64,000 nucleotides of DNA, taken from NCBI GenBank assembly GCA_030536575.1, contig JAUNPS010000001.1:1-64000 (forward strand). The letters run 5' to 3'. Position numbers and translations under genes: made by a program. How positions within the stretch are numbered: position 1 is the stretch's first letter; each line of letters opens with the position of its first letter. Source of the stretch: Eubacteriales bacterium (GTDB lineage: Bacteria > Bacillota > Clostridia > Lachnospirales > Lachnospiraceae). Shown here in pieces: positions 141 through 62,891 of the stretch. A model generated the notes under the pieces. It saw only the letters and a program-made list of their open reading frames with translations. It made no database searches and was not told where the DNA came from.

Positions 141-313
141 AGTAAACTCCTGTTTCTCACTCCTTATATCCTATGCGCCGTCCCCGAAAAATGTCCCTTT
201 CATCCCCGCCGAAACCGTCTGTGCCAGCCGCAGATCCTGCCCCCCGCGCGCGACGCCAAACTCAAGCACCCCAAAATCGCGCCCTCCCCCACGCCTGCAC
301 GCCCCCACCACGC

Positions 314-343
314 AAAAAAGGCGCTGCGCCCACGCGCAGCACC
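314..343 (-). terminator. Rho-independent terminator of the atp operon
   Basis: Read on the minus strand, a 10-bp stem (GGTGCTGCGC pairing with GCGCAGCGCC, one G-U) with a 4-base loop is followed by six T residues. It starts 3 bp after the atpC stop codon. Confidence 0.9.
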
Positions 344-346
344 CTC

Positions 347-775
347 TCACTTCTTCTCATTCACATGATCCGCCAACTCCAGCCGAATCAGCGCCTTCCT
401 CAGCGCCATCTCCGCCCTCGCCAGATTAATATTCGGGTCCCTCATCTGCATCCGTCTCTCCGCCCGCACCCTGGCCTCCTCAGCCCGGTTCCGGTCGATC
501 TCCTCTGGCCACTCCGCCACTTCCGCCAGAATCGTCACCTTCTCCTGCGTGATCTCCATAAAGCCCGCATGCAGCGCAGCCTCCCTTTTCGTATCACCCT
601 CGGTAATCACGGCGACCCCCGGCTGAATAATCGTCGTCAGCGGGATATGTTTCTTATAGACACCGATCTGTCCCTCACTGGTATTCAGCTCGATCATGCT
701 CGCCTTCCCTTCATAAAAAATCCGGTTCGGCGTAATAATTTTCAGGTCAAAAAACTTGTCATCCGCCATAGACAC
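347..775 (-). CDS. atpC: F1Fo ATP synthase subunit epsilon
   Basis: The 142-residue product has the usual epsilon layout: an N-terminal beta-sandwich (FDLKIITPNRIFYEG) and a C-terminal helical hairpin rich in Ala, Arg and Glu (RAEEARVRAERRMQ). It couples the central stalk to the c ring and can inhibit ATP hydrolysis. It is the last gene of the operon, 5 bp after atpD. Length is normal for Firmicutes. Confidence 0.97.
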   Translation of the reverse strand: MSMADDKFFDLKIITPNRIFYEGKASMIELNTSEGQIGVYKKHIPLTTIIQPGVAVITEGDTKREAALHAGFMEITQEKVTILAEVAEWPEEIDRNRAEEARVRAERRMQMRDPNINLARAEMALRKALIRLELADHVNEKK

Positions 776-780
776 ACCCC

Positions 781-2211
<1,431 letters not shown>

Positions 2212-3069
2212 TTAACTGATCGCTTCTGCACCTGCGATAATTTCAGTCAGTTCCTGAGTGATGGAGCCCTGTCTTGCGCGGTTGTACTGCAAGGACAGTT
2301 TCTCGATCATCTCCTCCGCATTGCTGGTAGCCGAATCCATGGCCTGCATTCTGGCCCCGTTTTCACTGGCTGCCGCTTCCACCAGTCCCCCGTAAATCAG
2401 GCTGGTGATATATTTCGGAATAATGATATCCAGGGCTTCTTCTTCCCCCGGTTCATAATTCATCAGAGTGTCACGCTCCTCTTTTGAAAGCTCCTGAGTG
2501 TCAAATTCCACCGGAAGAAGCTTTAACATCTTTGGTTCGTGCACCACCGTATTTTTAAAAGACGTATAAACCAGATAAATTTCTCCGGTTTTTCCAGCTT
2601 CGAAATCCTCCAGAACCTGATTGCAGATGGTCTGGGCGTCGGAAAACATCGGCGCATTGATCACATCGCTGTAGTCCTGCTCCACCGTGTAGCCCTTTTT
2701 CAGCAGGGCCTCCCCGGCTTTCCGGCCGATATTGTACAGGCGCACTTCCTCTTTGGGAATGCCGCTGTCGGTAATCATCCGGACAATGTTCGAATTATAG
2801 CCTCCGGCCAGCCCGCGGTTGGAAGAAATGACAACCACCGCCTTTTCTTTGGATTTCCCCGGCTTCAAATACCGGTGATCCACCACGCCCGAACGGGCCA
2901 GGATGGAGGTCACCACCCGGTACATATTCTCAAAATAAGGCTTGGACTGCTCCGCCTGGTTTCTGGTTTTCTGCAGCTTCACCGTGGAAACCAGCTTCAT
3001 GGCTTTGGTGATCTGCTGGATGCTGGTGATACTGCTCTTACGCCTTTGAATGTCTCTCATGGAGGCCAT
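2212..3069 (-). CDS. atpG: F1Fo ATP synthase subunit gamma
   Basis: The 285-residue product has the typical gamma ends: MRDIQRRKSSITSIQQITKAM at the start and a C-terminal helix ending RQGSITQELTEIIAGAEAI. The two helices form the rotating coiled coil in the alpha3beta3 core. Two starts are possible (3069 and 3060); 3069 is chosen because an almost perfect anti-SD match, AAGGAGGTGAT, lies at proper distance upstream of it. Confidence 0.97.
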   Translation of the reverse strand: MASMRDIQRRKSSITSIQQITKAMKLVSTVKLQKTRNQAEQSKPYFENMYRVVTSILARSGVVDHRYLKPGKSKEKAVVVISSNRGLAGGYNSNIVRMITDSGIPKEEVRLYNIGRKAGEALLKKGYTVEQDYSDVINAPMFSDAQTICNQVLEDFEAGKTGEIYLVYTSFKNTVVHEPKMLKLLPVEFDTQELSKEERDTLMNYEPGEEEALDIIIPKYITSLIYGGLVEAAASENGARMQAMDSATSNAEEMIEKLSLQYNRARQGSITQELTEIIAGAEAIS

Positions 3070-3083
3070 GCGGTATCACCTCC

Positions 3084-5157
<2,074 letters not shown>

Positions 5158-46879: not shown

Positions 46880-47815
46880 TTACTCCTCTATCTCGTAACA
46901 ATCCCATTCACAGATAAATTTACTGTAACTAAAGTCATCATCATCCCAGGTTCCCTCCCAGTAAATCTGGGCATAGTCCTGTCCGTTCTGGTCATTCGGC
47001 TCGCCGCTGGCCCAGTTCGTATAATCCGACTCCTCGCCATTCTCCCAAACCCAAACGCCTTCTTCCTGCCAGTCGCTGAATCCGAAAAACAGCATCTCTT
47101 CTTTCCAGTAATTGTTCACAAAATTGTAAATCGCGCTGTTCTCTGCCGCTGAGGTAATCGTTGCCAAATGCCCGCCCAGCGATTCGCAGAAGTCTCTGGC
47201 CTCCTGCCAGGTCGCGAGCCCCTCTTCATTCCCATAGTACATGGCATACTTATGGCCGTTCCATTCCAGCGCATTGGCCGGAATGTCCATCGCAGCACGC
47301 TTTTCCTGCAATTCCCCCATCTCAGAAATTTCCAGGCTGAACTCCGCGCTTTCCTCTCCGCAGGTAACGGTCATCAGCAATTCGCCGTCCCGCTCCACAA
47401 CCGCCTTTGGAATCTGCGTATGGTAAACCACAAGCATCTCGCACAGCGGATCCAGAACATAATCCTCTGCGGACTGCCAAGTCGCGGTCGGGAACACAAA
47501 GCTGTCCAGATCCATTTTGAATTCATAGCGGGACATAAAGCTCAGGTTCGCGGTCAGTTCATTGCGAAGCGCACGGTCTTCGTGCCCCAGATTTTGGACA
47601 AGCAGATTCACATAAAGCTCCGCATAATGATCGTCCTCCGCCTTACAAACCTCCATGCTTTCCGGCTTCAGGAGCAGCGAGGAAAGCTCCGTCGTCTCGC
47701 CCATCTCGCTGACCGCTTCATTTTCGCCGATAATCTGGACGGATTCCGCCCAGACGTTTCCCTGCATCGCGAACGCCAGCAGGCATCCGCCAAGTAACGC
47801 TGCTTTCTTTTTCAT
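46880..47815 (-). CDS. Secreted C-type-lectin-like protein
   Basis: The start is the ATG at 47815 behind GGGGGGA; upstream in-frame codons would extend into the previous gene. The 311-residue product has a signal peptide cut near NVWA-ESV, then the motif VQIIGE shared with the next two secreted proteins. A beta-rich middle region follows. The C-terminal 120 residues form a C-type-lectin-like domain (NGHKYAMYY, WQEARDFCESLGGHLATITS, FFGFSDWQEEGVWVWENGE, ASGEPNDQNGQDYAQI, FICEW). EPN is the classical Ca2+/mannose-type motif. A surface or secreted glycan- or protein-binding role is inferred. It is the last gene of the ESCRT-like operon. Confidence 0.85.
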   Translation of the reverse strand: MKKKAALLGGCLLAFAMQGNVWAESVQIIGENEAVSEMGETTELSSLLLKPESMEVCKAEDDHYAELYVNLLVQNLGHEDRALRNELTANLSFMSRYEFKMDLDSFVFPTATWQSAEDYVLDPLCEMLVVYHTQIPKAVVERDGELLMTVTCGEESAEFSLEISEMGELQEKRAAMDIPANALEWNGHKYAMYYGNEEGLATWQEARDFCESLGGHLATITSAAENSAIYNFVNNYWKEEMLFFGFSDWQEEGVWVWENGEESDYTNWASGEPNDQNGQDYAQIYWEGTWDDDDFSYSKFICEWDCYEIEE

Positions 47816-47828
47816 CTCAATCCCCCCC

Positions 47829-48668
47829 TTATTCCAAGCTGACCGTATAGGAATCTTCGCCGACAACCAGTTCCAGCACAAGGTTTCCCTCTGCCAGGCC
47901 TGCCGCCGCCTGATTGGGAAGCAGTACGCACAATGCGTAGTTCTCCTCTACCAGCGGTGCAATCACGGAATTGTATGTGCCTCCCGCGTCGCTTTCCGTC
48001 ATCGTGAACGTCCCCTCGCCGCTGTTTCCATCTTCGGCAAACCCGGATACCTCCAGCACAGACTCCTTCAAAGTCCCGTAGAACGACACGCGATTGTTCC
48101 CGGTTTGAATAAAATCACCATATTCGAAGGATACGCTTCCCGTTGTTTTATCGAAAAAGCCTGAGGAATTCCAGGAGGAATTTGCTGTCTGATAATCCTC
48201 ATCCTTCATACGCATAGTCATGCCTGTCAGCGTTCCGTCCTCCGCTTCCTCCGTAATTTCGAGCGTATAAACAATCTTTTGCTCATTTCCATAATCCACG
48301 ATTCCTTTCCAGGTTCCTACGCAGGAAGGCTGGTAGGAAGCGCAGGAAAAACGGTAGTCGTCATCATAAACCACCGACCAGGACAGCTCCGGATCGACCG
48401 TCAAATCCTCCAGCATCCAGTTCAAAACCGTGGCGTCAAAACACAGATATTTGTGGGCCGGATCGGCGACGTTGATTCCCGCGTTCTGGCCTATCTGGAC
48501 ATTTTCGATTTTCAGCTCATAGTCGTCCGTGCTCAGGCTCTCGCCGACCGAAAGCTCCCCGCCGGACGTCTGCCCGATGACCTGCACCGTTCCTGTTTCC
48601 TCCGCTATGGCGGGCATGGCCTGCAGCATCAGACCGGCCGCCGCCAGCACAAGCATTCTCTTTTTCAT
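47829..48668 (-). CDS. Secreted protein with VQVIGQ motif, unknown function
   Basis: The 279-residue product has a signal peptide cut near PAIA-EET and the motif VQVIGQ just behind it. The rest is predicted mainly beta, with an immunoglobulin-like first part (DDYELKIENVQIG, YLCFDATVLNWMLEDLTV) and a lipocalin- or sandwich-like middle (GTWKGIVDYGNEQKIVYTLEI). No catalytic motif is seen. It is encoded between the LamG-like and C-type-lectin-like proteins with 13-21 bp gaps, so it probably shares their site of action. Confidence 0.75.
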   Translation of the reverse strand: MKKRMLVLAAAGLMLQAMPAIAEETGTVQVIGQTSGGELSVGESLSTDDYELKIENVQIGQNAGINVADPAHKYLCFDATVLNWMLEDLTVDPELSWSVVYDDDYRFSCASYQPSCVGTWKGIVDYGNEQKIVYTLEITEEAEDGTLTGMTMRMKDEDYQTANSSWNSSGFFDKTTGSVSFEYGDFIQTGNNRVSFYGTLKESVLEVSGFAEDGNSGEGTFTMTESDAGGTYNSVIAPLVEENYALCVLLPNQAAAGLAEGNLVLELVVGEDSYTVSLE

Positions 48669-48689
48669 AATTTTTCTCCCTTTCTGCGT

Positions 48690-49442
48690 TTATTTTCCAT
48701 AAGAATCGTATAATTCTTTTACCTCTTCTTCTGAAAAGGCTCTGCCGTACAAGGCCAATTCGTCAAGCCAGCCCTGGTATTGTACTTTTTCTCTGTCGCC
48801 TTCCAGGTATTGCCGCCCAATCGTCACGGTATCTTCGTTTTCCGTAATCGGAATGCTTTGAAAAGAAGTGTCGTATTCTCCGTTGATATAGATGGATAAT
48901 TTCGAATATTCCGCCTGATAGGTATAGGTCAGCATGTACCATTGACCTGCTTCCAGTTCGGTGATTGTCTGGTATTCCTCATGACCACCGTTTCCGTCCG
49001 ACACCCAAAAGCTCGGATGGTTATAATTCAGATAAAAATCGTAAGGCCCATAATAATCCGTTTCATACTTCGCCAGGATCCCTGCATCGCTCCGCTCTTT
49101 GTTTTCCTCGTCCGTGTTGAGCCAGACGTTAAAGGTAAAATCACCAGGAAGATTGCATTCCTTCCCTACAATGATATAGTCTCCGTTACCATTCAGATAA
49201 ACCGCCGATCCCTTTACTCCTTCGCCAAACGTTCTCCGTCCAAAATTAATGCCCTGCGTATCATCCGCCGCATTCTCGTAATTCTCCTCAAACGAAAACG
49301 CCATCATCAGCGACTCATCCGAAATGCCGTCCTGCGCTTCCCCGATAATCTGCACCCCTTCTTCCGCGAATGCGGCGCACGGCGCCATCAGCATACCAAT
49401 CGCCAGTGCCGTTTTCCAAACCATCTTCTTAACTCTTCTCAT
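48690..49442 (-). CDS. Secreted LamG/concanavalin-like protein
   Basis: The 250-residue product has a signal peptide cut near CAAFA-EEG, the motif VQIIGE and then a LamG-type jelly roll that fills the protein: LMMAFSFEENYENAADD, GSAVYLNGNGDYIIVG, DFTFNVWLNTD, WYMLTYTYQAEYSKLSIYING, VTIGRQYLEGDREKVQYQGWLDEL. The WLDEL-YGRAFSEEEV end is typical for LamG_3 domains. These bind carbohydrates or proteins. It is the seventh gene of the operon. Confidence 0.85.
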   Translation of the reverse strand: MRRVKKMVWKTALAIGMLMAPCAAFAEEGVQIIGEAQDGISDESLMMAFSFEENYENAADDTQGINFGRRTFGEGVKGSAVYLNGNGDYIIVGKECNLPGDFTFNVWLNTDEENKERSDAGILAKYETDYYGPYDFYLNYNHPSFWVSDGNGGHEEYQTITELEAGQWYMLTYTYQAEYSKLSIYINGEYDTSFQSIPITENEDTVTIGRQYLEGDREKVQYQGWLDELALYGRAFSEEEVKELYDSYGK

Positions 49443-49463: not shown

Positions 49464-50708
49464 TCAACGCGCATATTTTTCCCGAAGCCTGGAAAGCTCC
49501 TGCATATATTCCTCCCGCGTAAGCACCCCTTCGTTATAATCCTCCGTCAAAAGGTTCCTCGCCCGTTTGTATTCCTGGTTCCGCTTCTCCTCCGCCAACT
49601 GAGCAGCGCCGTCATTCTTTAAAATCGCCTTCATCCCATCCACAGCCGCCGCGGCATTCACCCCGGAATTCCCCGGAATTTTCCCTCCCATCTCCGGGAA
49701 GATCCCGCCTGACAGGAAGATTTCTCCGGTGGCCGCATCCGTATTCGCCGCAATGTTTTCGACCACTTTAAACGCCATTTTCTCCTTTTCCGTGATTCCC
49801 AGCGCCGCGTTCGTCGCCGCCTGAACCTGCCCTTCCTCCGCCTTCAGCGTATTGGACGCCCTCCCGGAAACGATCGTCTCATAAGCCGCCGTATCCGCCT
49901 GGATCTGCCGCACCTTCGCCTCATTCTGCGCCTTGAGCTGGTCAATCGTTCCCCGGCTCAGCACATTTTCATGATCCCGCTCATTTTTCATCCGATCCTG
50001 AAGCCGCTCTTCGGTGTTCTCCTTCAGGATCTTACGAATTTTTTCAATGTCATCGTCATTCACCGGAATCCGGTCAATGTAAAATTTCTCCAATATCAGG
50101 CCGTAGTCCCGGAATTCCTCCGCCAAAATACTCTTCAGCCCATCGGCTAAACGCTTCGTCTCCCTTGAGAATTCCATACAGCTGAGATTACTGGCCGAAA
50201 GCACATTGCTCAAATGATTCCCGATATTCCCGGCAAGCACGCCCCGGAAAAACCCGTCCATCTTCCCCCTGGTAAAGGACTCCTGCATCCCGACCATCTT
50301 TTCCAGAAGCTTCCGGCTGTTTCCAATGCGGACATGCATCGTCCCTCCGGCTCCGACCCGGATCGGCACATGGTAAACCGGATCCATCATCTCCACACTT
50401 TCCCTGGTTCCCCAGGAAATGGGCCGCGCCACCGCCATATTAAAGAAATAAACTTCTCCCGTGGTGGCCGTTTTCCCGCCGCTTAAAAATCCCTGAATTT
50501 TCCGGAATCCCGGCAGATTTTTCGATTTCAGAATATGCGTGCCGGACTCCATCGTGTCGCTCATCACGCCGCCGCTTATGTAAATGGCCTCCTGCGACGG
50601 GCGCACCACGACCTTCGAATTATTGTTAAAATTTACAATATCGGATTTCCAGACAAGATCCTCCGCTGTCCCTCCGTATTCCAGCACATCCGTAATATGC
50701 AATGCCAT
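49464..50708 (-). CDS. SPFH-domain protein, YdjI-like
   Basis: The 414-residue product has an SPFH/band-7-type domain (about 20-250: VVVRPSQEAIYISGGVMSD, MDPVYHVPIRVGAGGTMHVRI, YGLILEKFYIDRIPVNDDD), a coiled-coil part (EERLQDRMKNERDHENVLSRG) and a C-terminal SHOCT-like segment (RARNLLTEDYNEGVLTREEYMQELSRL). B. subtilis YdjI belongs to this group and is encoded with PspA, an ESCRT-III superfamily protein. Its presence behind ESCRT-III- and Vps4-like genes is thus telling. It has no membrane helix and should be peripheral. Confidence 0.88.
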   Translation of the reverse strand: MALHITDVLEYGGTAEDLVWKSDIVNFNNNSKVVVRPSQEAIYISGGVMSDTMESGTHILKSKNLPGFRKIQGFLSGGKTATTGEVYFFNMAVARPISWGTRESVEMMDPVYHVPIRVGAGGTMHVRIGNSRKLLEKMVGMQESFTRGKMDGFFRGVLAGNIGNHLSNVLSASNLSCMEFSRETKRLADGLKSILAEEFRDYGLILEKFYIDRIPVNDDDIEKIRKILKENTEERLQDRMKNERDHENVLSRGTIDQLKAQNEAKVRQIQADTAAYETIVSGRASNTLKAEEGQVQAATNAALGITEKEKMAFKVVENIAANTDAATGEIFLSGGIFPEMGGKIPGNSGVNAAAAVDGMKAILKNDGAAQLAEEKRNQEYKRARNLLTEDYNEGVLTREEYMQELSRLREKYAR

Positions 50709-50726: not shown

Positions 50727-53700
50727 CTACTCTGCTTTTTCCAGTCCCAGCGTATACCATGCGCTGTCCCAGCCGTCTTTGCTTTCCGCCTGAAGCACAT
50801 ACGTCCCGGCCGGAATCTGAAGGAGATAGCTCTTCGCTCCCTCCTCAGCCGCAAACGTCTCGCTCCAAAGCGTTCCCTCCTGGTCAGCCAGACAAAGCGT
50901 CAGAAGCATGCTTCCTTCCCCTCCGTCCGCCGCCCCGCAGGTCAGGCGCACCGTCGTCTGCTCTTCCAATACCACCGAGAAACGGTCGATATCGTCCTCC
51001 GAACCGAAGGAACCATACCGCGTCTGTCCGAATGCCAACGCGGTCGGCTGTTCCTCATTCGGCTCGCATTCCCCGTTCGCGTCCTGCTCGAAATCCATCG
51101 TCAGCCGGTAAACCCCTTTCAGCTCCTGCCGCCCCTCGCTCAACTGCACAAGGTAGGTTCCCGCATCCAGCCAGAGCTTTCCGCTCTCTAAAAGCTGTGC
51201 ATTGCCCTTCGCGGCATTGCTCCATAAAACATTCAGCGCTTCATCCGCAAGGGTAATCTGGCAGACAGAAGACGCGGAAGACTGTTCTTCAAATTCCAGC
51301 CGCAAAGTCACGCTTCCCGGCTCCCCTAAGGTAAACGTATAATTGTCTACATCCTGCTCCTGTCCCTGTGCCACGGACAGCAGGCTCCCGTACACGGTAC
51401 TGCCCGGCTCGATAGCTGCTGCCTCCTTCAAAAGGTCATTGGGCTCCGCTTCCGCAAGAACTGCTTCTTCGGATATGTATACCGTATATCCATTCTGATT
51501 CCAAGTCGGATTTTCGACTTTCAGCCGGTAGGTTCCCTGGGGCAAAATCACCGGTTCTGAAGAAAGCGCACCGTCTTTTCCTGCGGCTGTCCCATTCCAG
51601 AGTTCCGTTCCGTCTTCCGAAAGGAGCAATGCCGTATAAGTCTCTTTTTCACTCTCTGTCGCCGGGAAGTTCAGGCTGACCCCGATCAGTCCCGCCCCTT
51701 CCAGCGTAAAGGAATAGTAATCTACGTCTCCCTTTACGGCCGAATCCGCCTGAATCACCTGATTCGTGGAAATCGGCGTGGCGGTTTCCGCCGTATTGTT
51801 CGGTTCGGCTTCGCAGTCCGCGGCCGTCTCCGTATGGATTTCCAGGCAATAGCCCGCGCCCGTCCAGGTGTCGCCCGCTTCGACCTGCACCAGATAGCTT
51901 CCGGCGGCCAGATACGTTGCTTCCGTCGTTTCGCCCTGCGCCAGCGTGCTCTGCCTGAGAAGCTGGTAAGAATCGCCGTCCGCCAGCTTCACGGAAAAAC
52001 TCTGGGCTTCCTCCGAGCTGATTCCAATCGAAACCGCCGCCTGCTCTTCCAGCGTAAACGCGTAAATATCAATGTCTTCCTGTTCGGACAGCACCGCCTG
52101 AATTTCCGTATTCGCCGGAACCGTGCTCGCCTGCGCCACTGTATCATTCGGCTCATGCTCCGTCTCAAGCCCTGCTTCGGCCTGAAGTTTCAGCGTATAG
52201 TCACCGAAATCTTCTTTTCCTGCTGTCACGCTTAACTGGTAAACACCCGCATCCAGGAAGAGTTCTCTGGACTGCTGCGTCGCCGCCGATGCTTTCAGAC
52301 TGTAGCAAAACAGCGGCTCATCCGGATTTTCTTTTTCATTTAAAACAATCTGGTAGGCCACTTTCGTACCGTCCGCGTCTCCGGACTGCCAGAATAACGT
52401 TACCTTCGCATCATAGGGAAGAAGAATTTCATAGGTTCGGTTCTCTCCGGTTTCCTGGAGCGTATCCTGAACCTGCGTATTTAAGCAGAGCAATGGCAAT
52501 TCTCCGCCTTCTTCCGTCCACTCGTCCGTCTGCATCGGCGTCCGGGACGCACCGCAGAGCCGCCAGATGCCTTCCGCATCCTCCTCCAGCGCAAAATACC
52601 TGACCGCCGCTGTCCCATCTTCCGCTTCATATTCCGCACGAACCAGCTCCTGTCCGTCCTCCGCCCAGTAAGCGCTGCAGCTCATCTGGAGCGGGAACAC
52701 CGGCTTCGGAAGCGTTTCCAGTGCCTCGTAGGCCATCCAGCTATCCGCCTCCGACTGGGTTGTCAGCAATGCGAATTCTTCCCACAGCTCCAGCGCACAG
52801 GCTTCCATTGCCTGCGTCATCGCATCCTGAACCGATTCCGGAAGCGGGTAATCCTCCTCCGGCCAGGAAATTTCCTGGCATACGGCCTGGTCTGTCTGGA
52901 CGCCGATTTCATACAAATTCTTCTGATACCGCGGAATGCTTCCCTCTAAGAGACAGTCATACGAAATCACAAAATCCGTCCTGGAAAAATGAACCGCTTC
53001 GCTCTCGGTGAATTGCCGCACCAGAGTTCCGCCCTGGATCTGATAAACGGTAAATGCGGTCTGCGCTTCATTTTCCGCCAGAATATAGAACTGCTCCCTT
53101 TCCATGATTTCGATTTTCGAAAAACCGCTTTCTTCCTGGATGCTGCACGTCACCTGCTCCGCGGACACATGGTAATCTGCCAGGCAACCGTCCCCGTTCA
53201 ATCCGATTAAATCCGGCCATCCGTCTCCATCCCAGTCCGCAAAGGCCGTGCTTTTCAGGCCTTCCGTCCCTGCTTTTTCTTCTAATGCAGCGCGGTAAAG
53301 CGACTGCACGTCAATCGTTTCCGGTAAAATCCCCTGTTCCGCGCCCCATAAGAACAGCATCAGCCGGTCTTCGGTCAGCGCGGCCGTACTTCCATCTAAA
53401 ATCTGCGCCAGTTCCTCGGTCAGCAGGGCTTTCTGACTCTGGTATTCTTCCGGTTCGTCTTCGTATTCCTTTAACAGGCTGTTCCAAAGCTCCATGCGCG
53501 TCCGGCCTACCGGGAAATAGCTGACCGCTTCGCCCAGCGCCTCTTTCAGATCCGCGCCTTCCTCTTTCGCCTGCGCAAACCATTCGAGGCACTGTTCGTC
53601 GCACCAGGACGCCAGTGAAAGGGCATATTCCATACAAAGGGTTCCGGCATAGGCCGAAATTTCTTCTTCCATCTCATAGGCGGAAAAAGAACTGCTTTCT

Positions 53701-54944
53701 TCTTCACAGAACGCTCTCCAGAGCGCGATTCCCTGTTCCGGATCTTCCTCTGCCGCACAGCTGCGCTGCATCGTCTCCACATAGAAACGGAAGGTTTCTT
53801 CCACCGGGCTTAACTGGAAACCGTCCTTGGCATCCTGTATGGCGGAATCATAGTCCCCTTCTGCTTCGTGGGCCGCGGCACATTGCTGATAAGCGGTAAC
53901 GCTTGCTTCCCGCGCCGTGGAATCCGGGCGTTCGGAAAGGGCAGCTAAGTTACACTGAAGGGCGCATTCCGGGTCACTTTCCAGCAGGCGGCTTCCGAAT
54001 GCGAGCAGGCAGTCCGCCAGCGACGCGCGATCCATTGCAGCCGCCTCATTCCCGCTCTCCGTCATCTGAAACAACTCCGCGCTGCCGTCCGTCCGTAAAA
54101 CGGCCAGTTCTCCGTCCTCTGTCACATACCAGTCGATCAGATCTTCTTTCCCTGCCAGCTCTAAATGGGCTTCCAATGCCAGCGTTTCCGCATCCAGACT
54201 TCCTTCGGCATCAAAAACGTCCTGCTGTGCAAGCAGCGAAAGCAGTGTCTCCGGAGAAATCCCATTGGCCTGCCAGTCCGCGGCGGCTTCCGTCAGGGCT
54301 GTTTTCAGGAGGCTTGCCAGTTTTTCGCCATTTTCTTCTTCCAGGGTCATCACGCTTTCCAGCGCATTGTCCGGATCCCCTTTCTGGAGGGCGAGCAATG
54401 CATTGCATAAAACGGCCTGATTCCGGCTGTCCTGATAGTTTCCGCCAGCCTCAAATTCTTCCAGCGCGCCCGCGTAGTCGCCCTGCGCATACAGGGCTTC
54501 CGCTTTCTCATAATGCTTCGACGGGAACCATGAAACGGTCAGGTAGGCAAACACGGCTCCGGCCGCCGCGAGCAGCACAATAAGCGCAAGAAATTCCTTC
54601 TTCCGCCGCGCCCCTTTTTTCAGCTTCGCGGCCGCTCTCCGGCATTCTTCCGCTTTTTTCTGCGCGTCCCGGAAATCGCCAAGCCTGGAAAATTCCGTGA
54701 TCGCTTTCTGATAATTCTCCCAGGATTTCTTCTCATTTGCACGCGCGGCATATCCGGAAGCCCTTTCATAGACTTCCTCTTTTCGTTTTTCTTCTTTTAG
54801 TTCTTCGATCAGACGGTTCTGCGCGGCTTTTTCGCCTTCCAGCCCTTTCCATTCGCCGCAGGCGTCGCAGTAGCCCACCACGCAAGTCCCTTTGGTCTGA
54901 ATTTTCAGATTACTCTTTCCGCAAGTCGGACACCGATAACCCAT
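50727..54944 (-). CDS. Giant zinc-ribbon, membrane, TPR and PPC-repeat protein
   Basis: The 1405-residue product starts with a zinc ribbon (C5, C8, C26, C29), a helical TPR-like stretch, and one membrane helix at about 117-139 after a basic segment (KKGARRKKEF). Outside follow TPR-like repeats (YEKAEALYAQGDYAGALEEF), a long acidic region with an integrin-like segment (FADWDGDGWPDLIGLNGDG), and, from about residue 900, four pre-peptidase C-terminal domains starting HEPNDTVAQA, AEPNNTAETA, AEPNDLLKEA, CEPNEEQPTA plus a related domain before them. It seems to link the cytoplasmic membrane-remodelling proteins with the outside. No catalytic domain is found. Confidence 0.85.
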   Translation of the reverse strand: MGYRCPTCGKSNLKIQTKGTCVVGYCDACGEWKGLEGEKAAQNRLIEELKEEKRKEEVYERASGYAARANEKKSWENYQKAITEFSRLGDFRDAQKKAEECRRAAAKLKKGARRKKEFLALIVLLAAAGAVFAYLTVSWFPSKHYEKAEALYAQGDYAGALEEFEAGGNYQDSRNQAVLCNALLALQKGDPDNALESVMTLEEENGEKLASLLKTALTEAAADWQANGISPETLLSLLAQQDVFDAEGSLDAETLALEAHLELAGKEDLIDWYVTEDGELAVLRTDGSAELFQMTESGNEAAAMDRASLADCLLAFGSRLLESDPECALQCNLAALSERPDSTAREASVTAYQQCAAAHEAEGDYDSAIQDAKDGFQLSPVEETFRFYVETMQRSCAAEEDPEQGIALWRAFCEEESSSFSAYEMEEEISAYAGTLCMEYALSLASWCDEQCLEWFAQAKEEGADLKEALGEAVSYFPVGRTRMELWNSLLKEYEDEPEEYQSQKALLTEELAQILDGSTAALTEDRLMLFLWGAEQGILPETIDVQSLYRAALEEKAGTEGLKSTAFADWDGDGWPDLIGLNGDGCLADYHVSAEQVTCSIQEESGFSKIEIMEREQFYILAENEAQTAFTVYQIQGGTLVRQFTESEAVHFSRTDFVISYDCLLEGSIPRYQKNLYEIGVQTDQAVCQEISWPEEDYPLPESVQDAMTQAMEACALELWEEFALLTTQSEADSWMAYEALETLPKPVFPLQMSCSAYWAEDGQELVRAEYEAEDGTAAVRYFALEEDAEGIWRLCGASRTPMQTDEWTEEGGELPLLCLNTQVQDTLQETGENRTYEILLPYDAKVTLFWQSGDADGTKVAYQIVLNEKENPDEPLFCYSLKASAATQQSRELFLDAGVYQLSVTAGKEDFGDYTLKLQAEAGLETEHEPNDTVAQASTVPANTEIQAVLSEQEDIDIYAFTLEEQAAVSIGISSEEAQSFSVKLADGDSYQLLRQSTLAQGETTEATYLAAGSYLVQVEAGDTWTGAGYCLEIHTETAADCEAEPNNTAETATPISTNQVIQADSAVKGDVDYYSFTLEGAGLIGVSLNFPATESEKETYTALLLSEDGTELWNGTAAGKDGALSSEPVILPQGTYRLKVENPTWNQNGYTVYISEEAVLAEAEPNDLLKEAAAIEPGSTVYGSLLSVAQGQEQDVDNYTFTLGEPGSVTLRLEFEEQSSASSVCQITLADEALNVLWSNAAKGNAQLLESGKLWLDAGTYLVQLSEGRQELKGVYRLTMDFEQDANGECEPNEEQPTALAFGQTRYGSFGSEDDIDRFSVVLEEQTTVRLTCGAADGGEGSMLLTLCLADQEGTLWSETFAAEEGAKSYLLQIPAGTYVLQAESKDGWDSAWYTLGLEKAE

Positions 54945-54980: not shown

Positions 54981-56153
54981 TCAATGCTGCTGAGACTGCT
55001 CCCAGCGCCGGATCGCATCCAGGTCGCTTTTCTGTACGGAGGAATGAAAATTCTCCAGGGCGTCGTCCAGATCCTCCCGTCTGACGGCTCCGTTTTCCTG
55101 ATGGTTCGCAATCGCATAGCGGACTGCGTTTTCTTTAATGCGCCCGCAAAGCGCGTTAATGTCCGCGGCATTGCACCCTTCGGACACCTCCGCGATACGC
55201 TCCGCAAGTTTTTCCTCCTCGCAGGGAACCGACGCGAAGGCCTTTTTTGCCAGGAAAAGCCTGGCCTCATAGTCGGGCAGGCCCACATAGATTTTCTGGG
55301 TCAGGCGCGGCGGCCGCAGAAATGCGCTGTCCAGATCCCAGGGGCGGTTCGTCGCCGCCACGATCAGCAAATCTTTTTCTTCGTCATTCCGAAACCCGTC
55401 CATCTGGCCGAGAAGCTCCGGAACCAGCCGGTTCATCACCGTGGAATGCCCGCCGCGTTTGGCCGCCAGGGCTTCGAATTCGTCGAAAAAGATAATCGCG
55501 CGTTCATGCTGCCTGGCGGTTTCGAATAGACTGCGTATATTTTTTTCGGCTTCGCCGAAGTATTTTCCTACAATGTCGGAGCAGAATACCGGGTAAAACG
55601 CCGCCTGGATTTCCGTCGCAATGGCTTTCGCGATCATCGTTTTTCCCGTTCCCGGAGGGCCGTAAAGCAGGATTCCGCCCTTGGCCTCATAACGGAAACG
55701 CGCGTACACCTCCGGATACTTTCTTGGAAGAATGAGCCGCATTTGAATGCTTTCTTTCACATCCGCAAGCCCTGCGATATCATCAAAGGAAACGCCGGGG
55801 CTTTCGGTGCTCTGCCAGACCTTAACCCCTTCTTCGTCTTCGCCGCTTTTCTCTTTTGAAATGTTTGCGCGCCTTCCCTGACCGGATGAGGCCGCGGATG
55901 TGCCTTCTGTCCTGCGCGGCTTGGGTGCTGGCGTCTCCGGAATGCTCTCCGCCAGACGCATCAGCTTCTGGGCGCGCCGCACCAGCGCTTCTTTCATTTC
56001 GCCGTCGGTTTCTTTCGCGCTGCGCAGAAGGGCTTCGGCCGAGTGAAAATACATTTTCCGGGCTTCGTCCATGCGTCCCGCCGCATAGGCGTCTTTGGCC
56101 TGCCGAAAATAGGTTTCGTAGATCTGATACGAAAATCCCTGATTGTCTTTCAT
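54981..56153 (-). CDS. Vps4-like AAA ATPase with N-terminal MIT-like domain
   Basis: Residues 8-71 form a three-helix segment with the MIT pattern (FRQAKDAYAAGRMDEARKMY, AQKLMRLAESI). A charged linker leads to one AAA module of the Vps4/katanin group: VSFDDIAGLADVKESIQ, Walker A GPPGTGKT (165-172), pore loop KYFG (197-200), Walker B IIFFDEFEAL (D224, E225), sensor 1 ATNR, and Arg residues in FLRPPRL. The PWDLDSA-YVGLPD pattern is especially Vps4-like. In eukaryotes and Cdv archaea such ATPases disassemble ESCRT-III polymers through MIT binding. Two ESCRT-III-like proteins are encoded directly upstream (4 bp gap). Confidence 0.88.
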   Translation of the reverse strand: MKDNQGFSYQIYETYFRQAKDAYAAGRMDEARKMYFHSAEALLRSAKETDGEMKEALVRRAQKLMRLAESIPETPAPKPRRTEGTSAASSGQGRRANISKEKSGEDEEGVKVWQSTESPGVSFDDIAGLADVKESIQMRLILPRKYPEVYARFRYEAKGGILLYGPPGTGKTMIAKAIATEIQAAFYPVFCSDIVGKYFGEAEKNIRSLFETARQHERAIIFFDEFEALAAKRGGHSTVMNRLVPELLGQMDGFRNDEEKDLLIVAATNRPWDLDSAFLRPPRLTQKIYVGLPDYEARLFLAKKAFASVPCEEEKLAERIAEVSEGCNAADINALCGRIKENAVRYAIANHQENGAVRREDLDDALENFHSSVQKSDLDAIRRWEQSQQH

Positions 56154-56157
56154 CCTC

Positions 56158-56745
56158 TTACTCCTTCATCGTCGCGCTTTTCTTTTCGATCTGCGCCAGC
56201 AGGCTGTCGATTTCCGAATCCATCACGTCTACTTTGGCGGCTCCGGTCGCGTCGATCAAGGCTTCGATCTCTGCGTCCAGCTCTTCCGCGTCCTGGGAGT
56301 CCGCGAAGGACATGCCCGCATCTTCCATAAAGCTTTCAAGCTGATCCATCGCCGCTTCGGCTGCCATCATGCCTTTTTCAAAAGCCAGTTGGTTATTCGC
56401 AAAATTCGCCGTTTTATTCACTTGGGTCAGTTCTTTCCCCACATTTCCCATAATTTTTACAAAATTCGATGAAAGGGTGGTCAGGTCGCGCATGCTCTCG
56501 GTCATCTGGATCTGCAGGATCATGGCTTTGCAGCGTTTCTGGTAGGACAGGATCATTTTCAGGCCGCTGACCGCTACCTGGTACTGCTGGGTGATGCCCT
56601 GCTCTTTCGCGGTCTGGGCGTGTTCGATCATTTCTTTTTTCTTTTTTTCCAGGGTGCGGTCGTATTTTTTCAGGTTATTGATCCCCTGTTTGATGGCCAG
56701 CCTGGCTTCCATTTCTTTTTCGGCTTTTGACTTAAATAATTTCAT
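56158..56745 (-). CDS. ESCRT-III (Snf7/CHMP)-like protein 1
   Basis: The 195-residue product has the ESCRT-III layout: MKLFKSKAEKE start, a long basic helix (about 8-44), a loop at KEQGITQQYQ, a second long helix (50-86), and weaker helices (118-142, 152-166) with an acidic C-terminal third. It resembles CHMP2-type proteins in charge swing, length and the DQLESFMEDAGM segment. The last helix (SEIDSLLAQIEKK) looks like a MIT-interacting motif. A PspA/Vipp1 protein would be longer with a different N-terminal amphipathic helix. It overlaps the second ESCRT-III-like gene by 14 nt. Membrane polymer formation is inferred. Confidence 0.78.
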   Translation of the reverse strand: MKLFKSKAEKEMEARLAIKQGINNLKKYDRTLEKKKKEMIEHAQTAKEQGITQQYQVAVSGLKMILSYQKRCKAMILQIQMTESMRDLTTLSSNFVKIMGNVGKELTQVNKTANFANNQLAFEKGMMAAEAAMDQLESFMEDAGMSFADSQDAEELDAEIEALIDATGAAKVDVMDSEIDSLLAQIEKKSATMKE

Positions 56746-57694
56746 GCAGACTCACATCCTCCCCTGTCTCCTGCTGCGGTTCGCCGCTTTCTTCCGCAGG
56801 CTCCGAACCGGTTTCTTCCTTTTTTTGCCGGGCTTCTGCCTGACTTTGGTTAAGCGCTTCCTGCTGCATCTGTTCGAAAAGATCCATGCCCTGGCTTTCG
56901 TCGGCTTCCTGTACGAAAGCGTCCTGCACTCTTTGATTTCCTTTTTTGAGGATCTCGTCCATATCCTGGATTCGTTCTTTGGTATCTTCCGCGCCCTGCG
57001 CTATCTGCTCCATCAGCAGTTCTGCCTGGGCGGTTTCCGGCATCAGGGCCTGGAGGTCGAGCGTGATCCGGCCGTTATCCAACATGGTCTGATACTGGGT
57101 ATTATTCTGAAGGACGGCCGAGAACTGTTTCATCTGGCCTTCCAAAATTTTCATCTTTGACTGTTTTTCTTTTGCCTCTGCGAGAAGCTGCGCGTAGCGT
57201 GGATTTTTCTTATCCATCTTCACGCTTTCCGCCGCCAGCGTCTGAAGCTCCTGATAGCACTGTTCCCACTGGTCGGAAAGCCTGGAAAGCCGTTCCTTGA
57301 TTTCTCCAATGTTGTCCTCTGCCTGCTTCAGTTGGCGTTCGATCTGCTCGTGGCGGACGTCTTCCTGGCTTTTCTTTGGTTTAAACAGTTTTTTCAGTCG
57401 TTCCATAACGCTTCTACTCCCTCCCGGCTTCTGTTTCCATTCTTTTGCGGACGCCTCCAGCCGTTTTGCCTCCAGCCTGGCGGTGGAAAGGCGGCCCTGG
57501 CGCAATGCTTCCTGTAAGTTCTGCGCTGTCTCCAGCATCTGTCTTTGCATCGCAGGATTCCGGCTTTTCGCTTCTCTCAGCAAAGCCAGGGTATTTCGCA
57601 GAGACTGCCGGATTTCCGGATCTTCATTTCCGTCTCCGCAAAGTTCCAGTTTTACCCGAAGCTCTCTCTGCATTTCTTCCGTTTTCCTGCTCAT
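56732..57694 (-). CDS. ESCRT-III-like protein 2 with extra N-terminal helical domain
   Basis: The 320-residue product is almost wholly helical. Residues 1-90 form a helical domain (EEMQRELRVKLEL, LQEALRQGRLSTARLEAKRL). A second start-like segment, MERLKKLFKPKKSQED (97-112), opens a Snf7-like core with long coiled coils to about 290 (EQIERQLKQAEDNIGEIKER, RIQDMDEILKKGN), followed by an acidic tail ending VSLHEII. The basic-to-acidic swing fits ESCRT-III, and the extra N-domain recalls CHMP7-like fusions in layout only. The tail may bind the MIT domain. It lies between the membrane protein and ESCRT-III-like protein 1. Confidence 0.7.
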   Translation of the reverse strand: MSRKTEEMQRELRVKLELCGDGNEDPEIRQSLRNTLALLREAKSRNPAMQRQMLETAQNLQEALRQGRLSTARLEAKRLEASAKEWKQKPGGSRSVMERLKKLFKPKKSQEDVRHEQIERQLKQAEDNIGEIKERLSRLSDQWEQCYQELQTLAAESVKMDKKNPRYAQLLAEAKEKQSKMKILEGQMKQFSAVLQNNTQYQTMLDNGRITLDLQALMPETAQAELLMEQIAQGAEDTKERIQDMDEILKKGNQRVQDAFVQEADESQGMDLFEQMQQEALNQSQAEARQKKEETGSEPAEESGEPQQETGEDVSLHEII

Positions 57695-57725: not shown

Positions 57726-58142
57726 TCAGGCGCCGCTTCGTATCTTTGCGTTCCGCTCGGCGATCAGTTGTTTCAATTTTTTCACGTGCAGAAATGCACG
57801 CTCGGTCTGGCGCTCTTCCAGGCTTTCTTTCAGCATGTCGAAGTTTCCGCTGATGCGGTCGTCGATTTCGTCCAGGGAAATGCCAACGCCCGGTTCGCTG
57901 TAGCGGATATCCTCCTTCAGCCCTTCGAGCGCCCTTTTCAGCTCCTCATCCTCAAGCCCGATCAGCAATGCATCAATTTTCCCGCTCAGTGCCCGCAAAA
58001 AACTGCCCGACTTCCCCGTCGGATCTTGCACCGTGCGAATTCTCTTCCTTCTGCTCCACAAAATCAACACCATCCCCACTATACACACCAAAATCAGTGC
58101 AATCATCCCTGCCCACAACAGCGTCATTGAGCCACTCATCAA
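57726..58142 (-). CDS. Small membrane protein with helical cytoplasmic domain
   Basis: The 138-residue product has one membrane helix near the start (LLWAGMIALILVCIVGMVLIL), a basic stop-transfer RRKRIR and a charged helical domain (ALEGLKEDIRY, ISGNFDMLKESLEERQ, AFLHVKKLKQLIAERNAK). The helical part resembles the first 90 residues of the next gene product in pattern. As first gene of the operon and a membrane anchor, it may recruit the ESCRT-III-like proteins; that is inference. No known family. Confidence 0.75.
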   Translation of the reverse strand: MMSGSMTLLWAGMIALILVCIVGMVLILWSRRKRIRTVQDPTGKSGSFLRALSGKIDALLIGLEDEELKRALEGLKEDIRYSEPGVGISLDEIDDRISGNFDMLKESLEERQTERAFLHVKKLKQLIAERNAKIRSGA

Positions 58143-60556: not shown

Positions 60557-60698
60557 GTTACTGTTCAGACAGTACCTGAGCACTTAGCTGCTCAGGTACG
60601 TAAGAACGTGATACAGGTGTGAGCAGGCTCTTTTGCGAAGCAAAACTTAAAATGAGCCTGTGAATCGTTACTGGAACGAGGTACGAGTGAACAGTAAC
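60557..60698. mobile_element. MITE copy 1, with 8-bp target duplication
   Basis: The 142-bp element starts GTTACTGTTCA and ends TGAACAGTAAC, a perfect 11-bp terminal inverted repeat. GAGTTAAT flanks it on both sides (60549-60556 and 60699-60706), a perfect 8-bp target-site duplication. Inside are further palindromes (ACCTGAGCA with TGCTCAGGT; GGCTC with GAGCC). No transposase is encoded. The copy at 62709-62851 is about 95 percent identical in opposite orientation. Confidence 0.88.
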
Positions 60699-60793
60699 GA
60701 GTTAATGGCGGTAGCTTTGCAGAGCAAAGATGTTGGAGGTAGATTTCTTCACAATTCGGGTGTATAATATAAGGTAGTTCGGGAGGTGAGGCT

Positions 60794-62708: not shown

Positions 62709-62851
62709 GTTACTGTTCACTCGTACCTCGTTCCAGTAACGATTCACAGGCTCATTTTAAGTTTTTGCTTCGCAAAAGAGCCTGCTCACTCCTGAATCAT
62801 GTTCTTACGTACCTGAGCAGCTAGGTGCTCAGGTACTGTCTGAACAGTAAC
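62709..62851. mobile_element. MITE copy 2, inverted, with near-perfect target duplication
   Basis: The 143-bp element has the same 11-bp terminal inverted repeats as copy 1, in opposite orientation. ATCCTTCC (62701-62708) and ATCTTTCC (62852-62859) flank it, an 8-bp duplication with one change. It separates the DUF998-like gene from the padR operator, so it may have changed that gene's control. Confidence 0.85.
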
Positions 62852-62891
62852 ATCTTTCCCTAGATTATAACTCTGCGTCATACGCTCCTTC

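Follow-up and report, generated by a model that had tools for sequence, protein, structure and literature searches.

A conserved Clostridia operon with an Snf7-like protein and a MIT-AAA ATPase as a candidate bacterial ESCRT-III/Vps4-like membrane-remodelling module

Components of the endosomal sorting complex required for transport (ESCRT) are reported from archaea and eukaryotes and not from bacteria (PMC10936438), and bacteria are stated to lack a clear Vps4 homologue (PMC7615534), in the parts of the two papers available here. These statements agree with a first-pass annotation of the DNA analysed in this work, a 64,000-nt window from Eubacteriales bacterium (GCA_030536575.1, contig JAUNPS010000001.1; all coordinates are those of the window unless a locus is named), which held that the bacterial ESCRT-III relatives PspA/Vipp1 work without a Vps4 and proposed a bacterial ESCRT-like module at 54981..57694. 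In the same available parts, PMC10936438 recognises Vps4 by a MIT domain or by ESCRT neighbours and describes archaeal Meth_adaptin ESCRT loci that include an SPFH protein with a coiled coil and a zinc ribbon. For B. subtilis, an SPFH protein that ties PspA to the membrane is described in the accessible portions of PMC8581546 and also of PMC10936438. Excerpts of Ravi et al. 2024 (PMC11237479) report Vps4-like AAA ATPases (ATPases associated with diverse cellular activities) transferred to bacteria without snf7, as well as bacterial PspA/Snf7-clade genes near AAA+ ATPases, and the Clostridia operon described below is partly foreshadowed there; a comparable Clostridia operon was not met in those excerpts. 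Nor did literature searches bring up a paper on such an operon, as judged from titles and the beginnings of abstracts, a coverage outside which most subscription papers and preprints lie. Our analysis suggests that this operon probably encodes an ATP-driven, ESCRT-III/Vps4-like membrane-remodelling module, and the ESCRT-like interpretation of the first-pass annotation is thereby partly supported. The three adjacent genes on which that interpretation was built are all present, with a 14-bp overlap between the Snf7-like and coiled-coil genes and a 4-bp gap between the Snf7-like and ATPase genes:

56158..56745, minus strand: Snf7-like (ESCRT-III-like) protein, 195 amino acids (aa), assigned from Pfam Snf7, an AlphaFold2 (AF2) model and VIA-align
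54981..56153, minus strand: MIT-AAA ATPase, 390 aa, with a MIT-like domain at about residues 1-72, a linker and an AAA module at about 115-390
56732..57694, minus strand: coiled-coil protein, 320 aa, sitting where relatives have the family coiled-coil gene

A survey of the gene neighbourhood, proposed together with the annotation, reveals a conserved operon in Clostridia. The species-level scan (one genome each) gave 113 pattern matches, of which 98 were relatives and 80 were kept (77 from named Clostridia, one from Bacilli and two without a class); pattern scans overlook relatives that do not carry the pattern. Counts out of 81 refer to the window plus these 80 loci at E ≤ 1e-5, with contig-end loci included. 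The Snf7-like gene is found in 81/81 because the loci were fetched through it. All 80 loci fetched in this way also hold a MIT-AAA gene, so the association goes beyond chance. With the window included, the MIT-AAA gene occurs once per locus in 81/81, as recognised by a MIT model built partly from 18 of the 81 counted domains (19 including a duplicate record). This would match the situation of a Vps4 gene beside ESCRT-III genes by which PMC10936438 recognises Vps4 if the Snf7-like partner, which scores below the family cut-off, were itself an ESCRT-III protein. Coiled-coil (77 loci), SPFH (75), anchor (75) and large-protein (at least 400 aa; 66) genes recur as well, counted with neighbour-gene models that came from loci partly identical to the counted records. 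In 73 loci, the coiled-coil gene sits at most 180 bp upstream, and only the window, L050, L066 and L126 are without a coiled-coil match; in a few loci, other genes intervene between the Snf7-like and ATPase genes. The MIT-AAA gene carries a Vps4-like AAA in 57 loci, a CbbX-type plus a Vps4-like AAA in 20, and a CbbX-type AAA only in 4, where CbbX-type is a label that we take from the AAA_lid_6 match of L042. Since the MIT domain is fixed while the AAA type differs among loci, the docking domain and the polymer candidate appear to be the constant elements, and the motor can vary.

The 195-aa protein has Snf7 (PF03357) as its best Pfam match, with E 1.2e-4 and coverage of 157/171 positions. Across the Snf7-like family, Snf7 is likewise the commonest Pfam match (11/49 members at E ≤ 0.1, best 1.2e-4), the runner-up family being matched by 4/49. 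The PspA/Vipp1 family PF04012 is not matched by the window protein (Pfam, E ≤ 1) and is absent from the 24 families listed for the 49 members (E ≤ 0.1). The AF2 model, of low confidence at a mean predicted local distance difference test score (pLDDT) of 58, has the five-helix layout of ESCRT-III, with predicted helices at residues 7-49, 52-109, 115-149, 153-169 and 175-194. Compared by VIA-align, ranks 1-8 of 50 for this model are all ESCRT-III, but their score ties with that of unrelated hairpins; 19/50 structural rows are ESCRT-III, PspA or Vipp1. The C-terminal helix, which would be the docking site for the ATPase, is conserved: a MIM1-like core, in a pattern picked after the tails had been inspected, is present in 76/81 tails and in 0 internal segments. 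A stricter MIM1 pattern, tried first, is present in 41/81 tails, and the window's own tail fits neither pattern; the consensus behind both is the one we take MIM1 to have. Profile comparison of the Snf7-like family with ESCRT-III and PspA by hhalign was powerless, as an accepted pair itself scored just 9.5%. As side observations, one TAA is reported inside the matched Snf7-like stretch of L009, L018 and the G863 locus and, given open frames of 191-199 aa, may be the gene's own stop. In L126, positions 281-3201, which lie some 7 kb ahead of the Snf7-like gene, hold a 339-aa helical protein together with two further frames, one AAA and one MIT-AAA; the 339-aa protein looks ESCRT-III-like by eye and has no Pfam match at 0.01, and the stretch is perhaps a second module.

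The MIT-like N-domain claimed for the ATPase is supported, in that isolated residues 1-75 have MIT as their best Pfam match (E 2.8e-4, 21.4 bits against a cut-off of 30). MIT is also the commonest Pfam match among 20 isolated N-domains, with 5/20 at E ≤ 0.1 (best 1e-4), compared with 3 for DUF1771 and 2 for TPR_8. In the PDB, the N-domain profile matches a designed helical protein (2.5e-6), a consensus TPR protein (2.5e-4), 2mpk (3e-4; a chitin synthase 1 chain, presumably a MIT domain) and Vps4A (0.079), the Vps4 and 2mpk matches covering the N-domain from position 15 or 16 to 71 (16-71 for 2mpk). The AAA module (Pfam AAA, E 7.1e-38) has intact ATPase motifs, namely GPPGTGKT at 165, FFDE at 222 and ATNRPWD at 267, as well as an aromatic pore position in GKYFGE at 196 and the arginines R280 and R283. 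We placed it in a tree of 32 rows comprising 20 bacterial operon modules, 4 Vps4, 2 Cdc48 (both modules) and 4 FtsH-like frames from the window's genome, a set without katanin, spastin and proteasomal ATPases. The 20 bacterial modules form one group (support 100/98), which in the best tree falls with the Vps4 sequences of yeast and archaea (96/93) and not with Cdc48 or FtsH. Rank in a phmmer search of the PDB was rejected as a criterion for assigning the AAA module, as two-domain Cdc48 chains win there on summed score. Four more AAA frames were noted in the window's genome (contigs C76, C95, C50 and C100), of 623-668 aa and scoring as FtsH-like.

The 320-aa protein had been annotated as a second Snf7-like protein. 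That part of the claim is not supported, whereas the 195-aa protein keeps its assignment at weak significance. Comparison of the 320-aa protein with Pfam (sole match at E 0.62) and, by hidden Markov model (HMM) and hhalign, with the coiled-coil, anchor and Snf7-like families of the operon and 12 PspA proteins gave nothing convincing. Its best single pieces reach 8.6e-5 (Snf7-like model) and 1e-4 (PspA model), values that refer to a three-sequence database and go with whole-sequence scores below zero. Judged by sequence, the window protein appears to be either unrelated to the relatives' coiled-coil family or diverged from it past recognition. The family version, of about 200 aa, is predicted to form a hairpin of 38 + 43 residues (pLDDT 71) that is matched by CT398 (rank 1), CdvB2 (rank 2), Snf7 (rank 3) and many unrelated hairpins, with ESCRT-III or Vipp1 in 13/50 structural rows. 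Structure prediction, which the annotation had suggested for both proteins, gives the ESCRT-III layout at low confidence for the 195-aa protein, and for the family coiled coil (not the window's) an ESCRT-III likeness that seems limited to the hairpin of a predicted model. Paralogy of the coiled-coil and Snf7-like families was considered and dropped, the hhalign comparison not being significant.

These three genes belong to a tightly packed, co-directional run of nine genes, all on the minus strand from 58142 to 46880, which is longer than the three-gene set first described and is assumed here to be a single transcript. Most starts are preceded by purine-rich sequence (by eye). The remaining members are:

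57726..58142, minus strand: membrane anchor, 138 aa, first gene of the run, with an N-terminal hydrophobic segment and a helical remainder (hydropathy)
50727..54944, minus strand: large membrane protein, 1405 aa (Pfam PPC 6.9e-6, weak TPR/FG-GAP; hydropathy)
49464..50708, minus strand: SPFH protein, 414 aa (Pfam Band_7_1, 1.1e-31)
46880..49442, minus strand: three genes whose products are probably secreted, namely a laminin-G-like protein (250 aa), a 279-aa protein and a C-type-lectin-like protein (333 aa), each with a signal-peptide-like start

The anchor, in which the first hydropathy window over the threshold spans residues 1-19, belongs to the anchor family counted above. The SPFH protein, a proposed membrane scaffold or recruiter, is of the same family as the SPFH gene of the relatives, there located upstream of the anchor gene. 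The 1405-aa protein, a possible sensor, has a cysteine-rich, zinc-ribbon-like start (by eye), a hydrophobic segment at 115-133, and then TPR- and PPC-like parts; it occupies the place of the large-protein family, yet the HMM of that family does not match it, and neither does Pfam find a TIR domain in it. Large operon proteins of two relatives carry TIR (Pfam TIR_2; L042:9114-11858 at 9e-10 and L043:11345-14806 at 4.6e-9). A trypsin-like protease with a zinc-ribbon-like start lies in the operon of L040 (4240-4983; Pfam Trypsin_2, 6.6e-26), and L043:10541-11290 resembles it by sequence likeness only. Pfam identifies Laminin_G_3 (1.9e-21) in the 250-aa and Lectin_C (8.3e-13) in the 333-aa secreted protein and gave no match for the 279-aa one; a VQ[IV]IG motif just past the signal-peptide-like start is common to all three (by eye), which are possibly extracellular partners of the operon. 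Upstream of the run, a P-type ATPase was noted at 60403-58322 from its DKTGT motif (by eye).

The operon is rare around its host. A Snf7-like relative occurs in 2/291 genomes of the class, one being the window's own, and in none of 60 near relatives other than that genome; both genus mates are without a match (0/2). At the level of the phylum, 2/398 genomes gave a match, i.e., the window's own genome and an uncounted 58-position match. For the relative G286, 2/118 genomes of its family have a match (G286 and one deemed chance), and 25/61 genomes of its genus carry the gene. Two matches, one within a 1220-aa frame in L005 and the 58-position one in G577 (L006/L046), were judged chance or unclear and excluded from the counts. 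The P-type ATPase region matches both genus mates at 72%. A repeat of about 143 bp, which looks like a dispersed mobile repeat, has two inverted copies in the window (60557-60699 and 62709-62853) and recurs across many further contigs of this assembly, mostly at 94-99% identity; being common to this contig and others, it makes contamination unlikely. FtsZ is present in 10/10 carriers tested, so that the module is not an FtsZ replacement. The genome of the window gave no PspA match, and 0/61 genomes of the G286 genus pass the PspA cut-off (one weak match); accordingly, the module is not a simple addition to PspA.

Several results weigh against an ESCRT-III/Vps4 assignment. By the Snf7 family HMM, the 195-aa protein scores 22.2 bits, below the curated cut-off of 27.3, and formal ESCRT-III membership is held back for this reason. 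For the ATPase, placing the AAA module with Cdc48 D2 costs 9.8 log units and is unrejected by the approximately unbiased test (p-AU 0.076), and pairwise AAA scores, being near equal, fail to separate Cdc48 D2 from Vps4. The lid of the L027 ATPase alone matches isolated p97 D2 chains (51.7-57.3 bits) better than katanin-type ones (30.9-35.4), and the best 60 of 187 rows contain no Vps4 chain; the tree was built later than this search. The best tree favours the Vps4 grouping claimed by the annotation, without rejecting a placement with Cdc48 D2. These points speak for an analogue without homology, that is, an SPFH-linked, PspA-like coiled-coil polymer served by a helical docking domain on a Cdc48-type AAA, still remodelling membranes at the expense of ATP. 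Coiled-coil hairpins are common, and the MIT-like domain is found on two different AAA types. However, the best tree puts the AAA module with Vps4, Snf7 is a recurrent Pfam match and ESCRT-III tops the structural list, and the N-domain is most often matched by MIT, which together make the analogue an unlikely explanation, if the most serious of the competing ones. That we are dealing with a true ESCRT-III-Vps4 system homologous to that of archaea and eukaryotes, present in bacteria as an SPFH-coupled Clostridia operon by archaeal acquisition or as a retained relic, and with the MIT domain of some relatives fused to a second, CbbX-type motor, is a proposition to which we give close to even chances, and we put it forward tentatively.

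Roles other than membrane remodelling appear less probable still. If the operon served defence or stress signalling, the MIT-AAA protein would be a regulatory remodeller, the effector would be the large membrane protein with its TIR or sensor part, and the coiled-coil proteins would be scaffolds rather than membrane polymers. The TIR domains of two relatives keep a defence role open, and the downstream protease of L040, the patchy presence within genera and a match of the ATPase to PADLOC IetA (7.7e-38) point the same way. That match (129 bits) is confined to the AAA module and lies below those to CDC48 (201) and CdvC (188); two ATPases also match other PADLOC AAA models (TRIP13 and DolB, and mad8 for one), the other seven scanned proteins have no PADLOC match at 1e-4, and the window's own large protein is without TIR, so we regard this role as improbable. 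Least probable is a general AAA chaperone acting on a local coiled-coil complex without shaping membranes, with a TPR-like adaptor as its N-domain: TPR matches do occur among the N-domains, and TPR chains rank better in the PDB list, but the MIT matches span the N-domain, and SPFH and single-span anchor genes are frequent company (each in 75 of the 81 loci).

Taken together, a polymer candidate, a motor with a docking domain, an SPFH scaffold and a single-span anchor are best explained by an ATP-driven membrane remodeller. Starting from what is directly observed, i.e., gene content and order, conservation, domain matches, the tree and FtsZ presence, we infer how polymerisation, docking and pulling might be linked to a signal and a task, deep homology being equally a matter of inference. 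The SPFH protein and the anchor would define a site on the cytoplasmic membrane. At the inner face of this site, the Snf7-like protein could form a filament, perhaps joined by the coiled-coil protein encoded next to it. The ATPase would then dock through its MIT domain onto the Snf7-like C-terminal helix, allowing the AAA ring to draw subunits through its pore, thereby recycling the polymer and reshaping or resealing the membrane, while the large membrane protein may couple the module to envelope signals. Its task probably concerns envelope stress or repair and not division, a role which the SPFH-PspA precedent of B. subtilis and the methanogen ESCRT loci with SPFH would fit.

If the assignment is true, the pairing of an Snf7-like protein with a MIT-AAA ATPase in bacteria would test whether the combination of polymer and motor has a single origin, was transferred between domains or evolved on two occasions, and it offers a compact system in which to ask how ATP could drive PspA-like polymers. 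Like the bacterial systems in the excerpts of Ravi et al. 2024 (PMC11237479), the operon contains a Vps4-like or other AAA ATPase; unlike it, those systems have a TPR-6TM protein in the place of snf7, or PspA with a distinct two-AAA protein. With archaeal Cdv/ESCRT (CdvB-CdvC), it shares the placement of a Snf7-like gene immediately ahead of the one for a MIT-AAA protein and an AAA module that the best tree puts with Vps4 of archaea and yeast, whereas here the Snf7 match is under the cut-off, FtsZ is present and the host is bacterial. The PspA-YdjI pair of B. subtilis (YdjI being the SPFH protein), as far as the accessible portions of PMC8581546 describe it, likewise joins a bacterial protein of the ESCRT-III superfamily to an SPFH partner, but in our case the Snf7-like protein has no PF04012 match and a MIT-AAA ATPase is present. 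Compared with the Meth_adaptin loci as far as the available parts of PMC10936438 describe them, the window's SPFH protein is without a zinc-ribbon match (Pfam), no adaptin-appendage match is listed for the scanned operon proteins, and the large membrane proteins differ (PPC, TIR); in both, however, ESCRT or ESCRT-like genes stand beside SPFH, and SPFH proteins with zinc ribbons do occur in L027 and L042. The operon would offer a link between SPFH and ESCRT of the kind that the same parts of PMC10936438 suspect from B. subtilis and methanogens.

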